A stretch of DNA of 64,000 nucleotides from Methanofollis aquaemaris (GTDB lineage Archaea; Halobacteriota; Methanomicrobia; Methanomicrobiales; Methanofollaceae), in contig NZ_CP036172.1 of assembly GCF_017357525.1 (NCBI RefSeq), positions 904,561 through 968,560 on the forward strand, in the 5' to 3' direction. The notes beneath the pieces were generated by a model. The model had not been told where the DNA came from. It was given only the letters and a program-made list of their open reading frames with translations, and searched no databases. Position 1 is the first letter of the stretch; each line of letters begins with the position of its first letter. Below are positions 1 through 10,162 of the stretch, one piece after another. The position numbers and the translations under genes are program-made.

Positions 1-828
1 CCCCAATCGCCATCCCAGGGGTCTGGGGGCAACACCCTCGGCGCGAAGATGGGTGAAGCATGTCGATCAGAAGGGCCACCCCACCAGAAGAATGAAGACG
101 TTTCAACGGTTCTCTCGCGCCGGGGGAGACCCCCGGACCCTCCAGGATGAAGATAGGGAAGGGGCGGCGATTGAGAGGGGTCACGGATCCTTCTACACTC
201 AGAAAAATCTGCGAGGGGCCCTGTAGAAACCATCCTCTTTTCATCACCTCAACCCCCCGGTGGACTGAATCCATCGCCTTCCCTCATGCTCACGCCGGGG
301 GCGCCGCCCCCGGACCCCGTGATGAAGAGAGAGGCGAGGAAGGCGAGAAGAGAAGACCATGATGTGGGGTTGCAGTCCGCCGCCCATCTTCGTGCGGGGG
401 GACCGGGGGGCGGCCAGCCCCCCGCAGAGATAGCCATTCTGGGCATTTACCATGAAAATGATCCAGACGTTCAATTCTGGAGTTATGGATGAGAATTTGA
501 ACACACAGATTTCTCTCATACCTGATATACGGAGAAAAAAACCGCCCTCAGAACGATCGGGCTCTCTGCCTTCCCGCCCCTATCTTCGTCCCGGGGGTCC
601 GGGGGCAGCGCCCCCGGCGTGTATGATGGAGGAAGGCACGTAGTTCAGAGATGCCGCCCCCAATCGTCGAATCTTCACCGCCGTCTCGCACCGGGGGGGC
701 GGTGCCCCCCGGATCCCCCCACGGATGAAGATAGCCGAGGAGCGGCAGTTGAACAGTATCCTTCAGGTGCCCTGTTGCGAGGAGAGGAATCAAGTATCCC
801 TTCGCACTCAGGAGAACTGCAACGAGAA
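1..828. repeat. Intergenic block of GC-rich hairpin repeats
   Basis: No convincing gene is present here. Short open frames are broken, overlap on both strands and show no recognisable domain. The block is instead built from copies of one element, seen near 15-60, 118-160, 285-335, 376-430, 568-632 and 682-740. Each copy has a core of G-runs facing C-runs, for example GGGGGCAGCGCCCCC near 600-618. The core is flanked by a 'cccctatcttcg' type arm and its complement 'gaagatag', so a transcript would fold into a long hairpin. A shorter piece at 214-262 resembles the terminator-associated repeat described at 829. Confidence 0.6.
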
Positions 829-955
829 ATTTTCATCACGTATGCTTGAGCCAGGGGTTCATGCCTGATTCTACAAAGTCCTGCGAGGGAAGATTTTCAT
901 TCGGTATGCCTGAGGCGTGTTCTCGACTCAGGAGCGACTCAACAGAGCCGAAAAA
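829..955 (-). repeat. Two copies of terminator-associated repeat
   Basis: Two adjacent copies (829-880 and 890-955) lie downstream of the minus-strand gene ending at 1015. Read on the minus strand, the inner copy begins with a T-rich tract, then GGCTCTGTTGAGTCG, then a short palindrome, then GCATACC and GAATGAAAAT. The same order of parts recurs at about 9539, 34456, 40444, 61362 and 62041, each time directly after a gene end. The T tract probably serves as the archaeal transcription terminator; the function of the conserved part behind it is unknown. Confidence 0.5.
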
Positions 956-8864: not shown

Positions 8865-9590
8865 ATGGGATTAAGAGCTCTGTTAAAATCCCTGTCTGCA
8901 ATGGAACAGGATCACCATCTGAACGGTCCCTGGCGCAAGGGTGTGGGAAGGAGTGATGATCAGGCGTGCCGCCCTCAATCGCAGGATCGTCACCGGCATC
9001 TCGCACTGGGGGGAGATCCCCCGGACCCCCTACGGACGACGATACCCGAGGGGCGACGATTGAGTGCAATACTCACTGTTGCCCTGTCGTGAGGAGAGGG
9101 AACCCTCAAAACTCTGAAGCGCAGCTCTGAACAATATTCAACCGCGTATGCCTGAGCCCGGGGTTCATGCCTGCTCCAACAGAAGAAGGCGAGAAAATTC
9201 ATCGTCGTCCGGTTTGCACCTCTGCATCGGCATACACCTCTTTGCACTCAGCAACTATCACCAAATAAAAGATATTTAGATCTCCGTTCTTCAATACGGG
9301 CCTTTTCGTTCCGATCTCATCCTCATGTGCATCCAGATCTCGATCGCACACAGGCCCTCACAGAGAGCCAGAGAGATCAAGGGCGGTGTGTGTGTTCTCT
9401 CGTTCTGGTGCAATATAGTATTATGAGAGAGATCTCTCTCTCTCCTCTCTCTAGAATAGGTACTCTGAGCCCTCTTCTCCGTCCGCGTCCATCACACTTT
9501 TTCAGTGCATTTTCGGTGCAGATGAGGTGCAAATGTGCCAGGCATGCTCTCGACTCACGTCTGATTCTACCTGGCCGAAAAAAAGGAAAT
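8865..9590. other. Intergenic, repeat-rich, no gene seen
   Basis: No supported gene. From left to right it holds a GC-rich hairpin repeat (8990-9065), a terminator-type repeat (9135-9182), an AT-richer segment, a GA/CT palindrome (9411-9458) and a terminator-type repeat (9539-9584) whose minus-strand T tract (CCTTTTTTTCGGCC) lies directly downstream of the fluC stop. Apparent frames are interrupted and without domains. Confidence 0.5.
9411..9458. repeat. GA/CT-run imperfect palindrome
   Basis: The sequence runs AGTATTATGAGAGAGAT, then CTCTCTCTCTCCTCTCTC, and ends near ATAGGTACT, forming an inverted repeat with long purine and pyrimidine runs. A closely similar element sits at 22693-22744. 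It could form a hairpin or a protein-binding site; its role is unknown. Confidence 0.5.
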
Positions 9591-9965
9591 TCAGAGTGCC
9601 GCCGCCACCGCGCCGGCACATCCCCGCCCGGCATAGAGCGCGAGGACGGTCAGCAGGAGCGTCGCCCCTATATAGGCCCCAAAGCCGAAGAGATTGTCGT
9701 CCTCAAGGCGCCTGAACGACTCCAGCCCGAAGGTCGACATCGTCGTGAAGGCCCCGAGGAGCCCGACGGTCAGGAAGATCCGCATCTCCTCGCTCACCAC
9801 GCCGGTATACTCGGCAATATAACTCACCCAGCTGAGCGCAAAACAGCCGAGCACATTTACTCCAAGCGTCCCGACAGGGAAGGAGGCATACCCTTCATGG
9901 AGCCATCCGCTGATCTCGTAACGCAACAATGCACCGGCAAACCTGCCGGTCCCGATAAGCAGCAA
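9591..9965 (-). CDS. crcB: Fluoride exporter FluC/CrcB
   Basis: This 124-residue small membrane protein has four predicted helices and exports fluoride. Family motifs are present: GRFAGALLRYEIS near the N-terminus, PVGTLGVNVLGCF with the conserved Asn (about 31-43), and GLLGAFTTMSTFGLES (about 68-83), matching the usual GGFTTFSTF segment that lines the fluoride pore. The only good start in this frame is TTG at 9965, which opens directly at the first family motif; a nearby ATG is out of frame. A fluoride riboswitch lies about 40-90 nt upstream, which independently supports the assignment. FluC works as a dual-topology dimer. Confidence 0.9.
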   Translation of the reverse strand: MLLIGTGRFAGALLRYEISGWLHEGYASFPVGTLGVNVLGCFALSWVSYIAEYTGVVSEEMRIFLTVGLLGAFTTMSTFGLESFRRLEDDNLFGFGAYIGATLLLTVLALYAGRGCAGAVAAAL

Positions 9966-10001
9966 TCCATCATGGCCCCTGCGCGCTTGAAAACCCGTGG
10001 A

Positions 10002-10054
10002 AAAAAGAAGTCATCAGTTAGGACGGCGGTTCAAGGCGACTTCATCGCCCGGCC
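10002..10054 (-). promoter_or_regulatory. Fluoride riboswitch (crcB motif)
   Basis: On the minus strand, between a promoter region and fluC, the sequence reads GGGCGATGAAGTCGCC, then TTGAACCGCC, then TAACTGATGACTTC. These are the conserved blocks of the crcB fluoride-sensing RNA (GGCGATG...GCC, an internal AACC-type segment and CTGATG plus a closing strand). GAAGTC at the 5' side can pair with GACTTC at the 3' side. A run of six Ts follows at once (10001-10006), so ligand binding could control termination. The hit was made by eye and needs an Rfam crcB model to confirm. Confidence 0.85.
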
Positions 10055-10162
10055 CCCCGAAAAGGGGCTCGAATCTATGGTGTGTAATAACACGGCCCGG
10101 AGAGATCTCAAGATGGCGGAGTCCACCGATCCCCTACAAAAAGAGAAAAGGAAAGAGACCCC

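Follow-up and report, generated by a model that had tools for sequence, protein, structure and literature searches.

Fluoride (crcB) riboswitches are a well-known RNA family (Rfam RF01734), and archaeal members of it are already known. Among the closest described systems is the fluoride switch of the Thermococcales (Speed et al. 2018; through PMC11077080, PMC8241225 and PMC11549558), a natural archaeal fluoride aptamer that is tied to fluoride export and was assayed in cells. The relevant passage of PMC11077080 calls this switch translational, and that of PMC8241225 calls it "presumably" translational and describes it as the only natural archaeal riboswitch that has been experimentally determined. 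The RNA considered here is likewise archaeal, belongs to a natural fluoride aptamer family and lies next to a fluoride export gene, but it is damaged. It is found in a stretch of 64,000 nucleotides (the window) from Methanofollis aquaemaris, so that the methanogen host named in the original prediction is correct; the genome of origin, G000, is a single contig of 2.75 Mb with 99.76% completeness. The main comparison is with G027, another genome of the genus, which carries the corresponding locus. In our reading, to which we assign a probability of roughly 0.72, the window holds a redundant fluC locus in decay with a switch that is probably broken: a copy that is ordinary in kind and damaged in detail. 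The whole case rests on the comparison of sequences.

All of the conserved blocks named in the original prediction are present on the minus strand at positions 10002-10054, upstream of fluC, although one of them, AACTGATGAC, reads GGCTGATGAC in G027 and is therefore not identical in the ortholog. In a 301-base search (cmscan), the RNA matched RF01734 over the full model length (9998-10058, minus strand) at 28.2 bits with an E-value of 4.4e-6. The Rfam gathering score is 34 bits, and a gathering-level scan of the whole window therefore listed two tRNAs only. Genome-wide, the window copy is the fourth-ranked match (E 9.3e-6), behind three over-cut-off copies of 51.8, 48.8 and 47.8 bits and ahead of a match of 21.6 bits, at which the background begins. 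Weak matches (E up to 10) were found in all 14 well-known genomes used as controls, four of which also have over-cut-off matches, which means that the score by itself would leave family membership undecided. The copy is more than a chance match since G027 has an over-cut-off aptamer (47 bits) of nearly identical sequence in the matching position, with the same FtsX/MacB-like permease gene preceding it and a fluC of 94% identity following it. The original prediction had offered a low Rfam score as a ground for dropping the family assignment; the score is indeed low, and the assignment is kept through synteny with the over-cut-off copy. Judged by this synteny, the window RNA is a real member of the crcB/fluoride family by descent, as had been proposed. 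It shares with RF01734 the order of elements, P1, both pseudoknot strands, the AACC and TGATG blocks and the position before fluC, and differs from it in its sub-gathering score, a hairpin that is one base short and a P3 that is almost gone.

In the alignment from P1 through the T tract, the window lacks one base that G027 has, shows AA for GG (GG>AA) in P3 and differs from G027 at two C/T sites of the tract. The missing base falls in the P1/pseudoknot hairpin GGCGATGAAGTCGCC (10035-10049, minus strand), which has 15 nt in the window and 16 nt, with one extra C, in G027. The P1 stem GGCG/CGCC is present (10046-10049 with 10035-10038), as are the pseudoknot 5' strand GAAGT (10039-10043) and TGATG with the 3' strand GACTTC (10007-10016), the latter being the same as in G027. 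GAAGT and ACTTC are complementary; the sixth base of the 5' strand is the C at 10038, for which P1 and the sixth pseudoknot pair compete. In the 15-nt hairpin this one C must serve both, so the GAAGTC/GACTTC pairing put forward in the original prediction is sound in its complementarity but costs P1 a pair, one C of G027 being absent.

We searched 120 genomes of the order for aptamers. Leader statistics refer to 71 sequences (the window copy and all 70 over-cut-off order-level aptamers), and hairpin and P3 counts refer to 74, that is, those 71 and three under-cut-off matches of 25.1, 18.2 and 25.5 bits; G014 (L036, 26.5 bits) and the remaining under-cut-off order-level matches stand outside all counts. 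The P1/pseudoknot hairpin is 16 nt long in 72 of the 74 matches, 17 nt in one and 15 nt in the window only. A pattern search across 392 genomes of the phylum, with likeness to crcB judged by eye, returned 50 matches of the 16-nt form (37 crcB-like) and 21 of the 15-nt form, two of which were crcB-like: the window copy and L182. The latter still scores 44.2 bits, which softens the case for the short hairpin as a defect of the window alone; by eye its pseudoknot strand has a mismatch, and no open reading frame longer than 70 amino acids starts 30-300 nt from its P1.

Folded in isolation, the hairpin forms six pairs at -7.0 kcal/mol in the window and four pairs at -5.1 kcal/mol in G027. The window fold has the lowest energy and is the sole six-pair fold among the 71 leaders, and it ties up bases beside the pseudoknot. 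One such base is paired in a five-pair isolated P1 fold in 20 of the 70 other aptamers, and sequestration of ligand bases is accordingly weakened as a defect unique to the window. The second hairpin, P3 (10017-10027, minus strand), reads GCC-GTCCT-AAC against GCC-GTCCT-GGC in G027, a pair of G/A differences that leaves one Watson-Crick (G-C) pair in the normal register. In isolation, the G027 P3 folds at -3.9 kcal/mol; the window lacks this fold and reaches -0.9 kcal/mol in another register. The longest contiguous P3 pairing is at least three pairs in 63 of the 74 matches and two pairs in nine, the window included, with two matches unscorable. By eye, in six of the other eight two-pair stems a single C-A mismatch interrupts the pairing, which then continues, and two are GC/GC, whereas the window has C-A at two consecutive pairs. 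Most of the aptamer core is the same as in G027, including the bases that we take to be ligand contacts (in the numbering of the Thermotoga petrophila aptamer).

The downstream gene is fluC, as originally assigned: its product scores 80 bits against PF02537 (CRCB, cut-off 32.9) over profile positions 1-102 of 103. The reading frame (9591-9965, minus strand) lies 32 nt beyond the end of the Rfam match and has 124 codons from a TTG, which is the first in-frame start when ATG, GTG and TTG are considered and agrees with the start proposed earlier. Upstream of its fluC, G027 has the Shine-Dalgarno (SD) sequence GGAGG followed by ATGCACTATGGATTG with an ATG; both lie inside a 57-nt gap in the window (approximate junction 9974/9975, minus strand), and the gap accounts for the TTG start of the window gene. 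A GGGG stretch is located about 10 nt upstream of the TTG.

The FluC proteins of the window and G027 differ at seven residues, the window frame being open and dN/dS 0.11. Among 86 relatives, the G027 residue outnumbers that of the window at all seven sites, at residue 99 by only 21 to 20; there the close relatives (at least 50% identity) match the window, with 10 Ile against 6 Val. Two of the changes are radical. Residue 8 is Arg in the window only, where 76 of the 77 relatives have Gly and the other has Ala, and residue 86 is Arg in the window only, with a hydrophobic residue in 86 of 86 (Leu 65, Met 15, Phe 5, Val 1). Thus, although it covers nearly the whole PF02537 profile, the window FluC departs from the family in its two Arg residues, at a Gly and at a hydrophobic position, and in having no ATG; Gly8>Arg and Leu86>Arg would argue against fluoride export by this protein. 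An earlier regular-expression count had found GG in 73 of 76 FluC sequences, including those of the window and its ortholog. For the hairpin, P3, Gly8 and Leu86, comparison with relatives speaks for the G027 state as the ancestral one; for the C/T sites and the gap, where two sequences are compared, either state may be ancestral. Of 203 relatives, the related-locus search of genome contigs covered the 80 best, none above 61% identity; the window's own genome may be absent from them.

The 711 nt directly after fluC (8869-9579) are without a counterpart at the same place in G027. Part of this stretch, at about 8927-9184, is a dispersed repeat that is also found at window positions 652-875 and, with 40 of 185 candidates scored, has at least 46 other matches in the genome (E up to 0.001, overlapping query positions 396-653, identity 70-88%). 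From the same scoring of 40 of 185 candidates, a second part (query 40-390) occurs in at least two other places in the genome.

The original prediction also held that the T tract next to the pseudoknot strand implies control at transcription termination. The six Ts (10001-10006, minus strand) directly follow that strand, and published passages lend termination at such tracts some plausibility, with Pyrococcus furiosus polymerase terminating at T runs of five to six nucleotides at 90 °C (PMC2253867) and termination in Methanococcus maripaludis being associated with U tracts (PMC8716108). In the 60 nt that follow the pseudoknot, however, a T run of five or more occurs in 1 of the 71 leaders, the window itself (T4 in 18), and G027 has TCTCTTCT in place of T6, with C at two sites. 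Termination at the T tract as a conserved platform is rejected on these grounds. By geometry, RNA polymerase would in addition reach T6 before the 3' strand of the pseudoknot is free, and the tested archaeal switch is described as translational in the passages cited above. A fluoride switch acting through termination at T6 is therefore a very improbable reading, although T6 may still stop some transcripts. We give slightly less credit to a re-wired leader in which the shorter hairpin, the lost P3 and T6 have turned an ancestral, probably translational switch into a transcription attenuator with fluC translated from TTG; that reading we hold to be highly improbable as well.

Nor did pairing of the pseudoknot strand with a segment further downstream, or pairing of the SD, emerge as a shared platform: of the 71 leaders in a longest-complement test, 4 reached p<0.05 against an expectation of 3.6, and 11 reached p<0.1 against 7.1, with no clear enrichment. 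The values were 0.94 for the window and 0.695 for G027. The test is a weak one, as only base composition was preserved in the shuffles and the tested strand started at TGAC or TAAC. A TATA-like element lies 39 nt before P1 (10079-10088, minus strand). With a matrix fitted on the same 71 leaders it ranks 35th of 71, and the best G027 site, at the same distance, ranks 27th; these ranks are weak evidence, the matrix not being held out. A weak promoter as an added lesion is not supported by them.

Seven of the 12 genomes of the genus have a CRCB gene, and only G000 has two. Its second fluC, at 286.9 kb, stands behind the 47.8-bit riboswitch and has an ATG and an SD-like motif, whereas G027 has a single CRCB gene, the window copy's ortholog in intact form. 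With another FluC in the genome that has an over-threshold riboswitch of its own, the window locus would be redundant, and for this reason decay appears the most likely course for it. In the intact form, the aptamer would bind Mg-fluoride, close the pseudoknot and turn fluC on, most likely at translation by analogy with the papers on the Thermococcales switch. In the window, the shortened P1/pseudoknot hairpin together with the missing P3 probably stops fluoride from stabilising the fold, and the gene has neither the SD and ATG of its ortholog nor non-polar residues at two conserved positions. The lesions themselves come from direct comparison; the loss of binding, the loss of expression and the redundancy we infer from them and from the second copy. 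The simplest account is of a spare copy in which the switch, the start site and two conserved residues are being lost, and the locus looks like an ordinary switch under loss and not like a new mode of transcription control. The proposal that the riboswitch controls fluC today is thus not borne out, given the short hairpin, the nearly lost P3, the missing SD and ATG of the ortholog and the two radical changes in FluC.

Several observations speak against decay. The FluC frame is open and dN/dS is low, so that any decay would have to be recent or incomplete. The core largely matches G027, the TATA-like element is no weaker than usual, two-pair P3 stems are seen in other over-cut-off aptamers (GC/GC in two), and 20 of 70 share the side pairing in the P1 fold. 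L182 scores well with a 15-nt hairpin, and the close relatives side with the window at residue 99. The case for decay moreover concerns one genome only. Part of this evidence would also fit a leader that is still a working fluoride switch, in which P1, the pseudoknot and the ligand bases are enough for function and translation of fluC from TTG is set to a lower, tuned level, with the open frame and its dN/dS, the shared core bases, the two-pair P3 stems of some over-cut-off aptamers and the GGGG stretch before the TTG all in its favour. Against it stand the single C shared between P1 and the pseudoknot, the one in-register Watson-Crick pair of P3, the loss of SD and ATG and the two Arg residues, and we consider it unlikely. 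That an intact riboswitch was made to look broken by sequencing or assembly errors is extremely improbable. One genome of the species was sampled and a one-base loss in CC is a typical error, but such errors would have to account for several independent differences (the lost base, GG>AA, two C/T sites, the 57-nt gap and two radical residues) in a one-contig genome of high completeness.

The window and G027 copies are a natural degraded and intact pair for gauging how much loss of P3 and of the P1/pseudoknot hairpin can be tolerated. They also give reason for caution, as conserved blocks and a T tract can pass for a working switch where the ortholog reveals remnants.

The wider fluoride regulon of the order is probably more interesting than the window copy. 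The commonest genes behind its over-cut-off aptamers form a BLAST-linked group of 21 leaders, of which the one member tested is a Dynamin_N GTPase, followed by a group of 16 leaders whose two tested members match the prenyltransferase alpha-alpha toroid. Examples of genes in the leader groups are L126 5762-7540 and 11866-12699, and both kinds also occur in the window's own genome. With script-chosen start codons, 14 of the 16 prenyltransferase-type genes start 4-18 nt past the Rfam match, and 5 of the 16 have an SD-like motif. In the dynamin-linked group, with starts chosen in the same way, 20 of the 21 genes begin 13-86 nt past the match and 18 of the 21 have an SD-like motif; most of these leaders carry a CUCC-type pseudoknot strand. 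There may be two kinds of expression platform in the order.

One locus, L129 (G096:C16:68500-84000), holds seven over-cut-off fluoride aptamers spread across some 12 kb and another of 25.1 bits. The products of the genes behind them match Prenyltrans, glutamine synthetase, F420-0:gamma-glutamyl ligase, an Na/H exchanger (two tandem aptamers), an MFS transporter and a TCP-1/cpn60 chaperonin; a literature search for fluoride riboswitches with chaperonin or with dynamin returned no match for either. Tandem aptamers were also seen (L049 2770-2831 and 2889-2965, L130, L156): two before fluC in Methanogenium cariaci, two before an Na/H-exchanger-type gene in G068 and two back to back in G005. A small inserted hairpin of the GGCA..TGCC type lies between P1 and the AACCG block at L047 2900-2973, L049 2889-2965 and L051 2908-2977, in each case before fluC.
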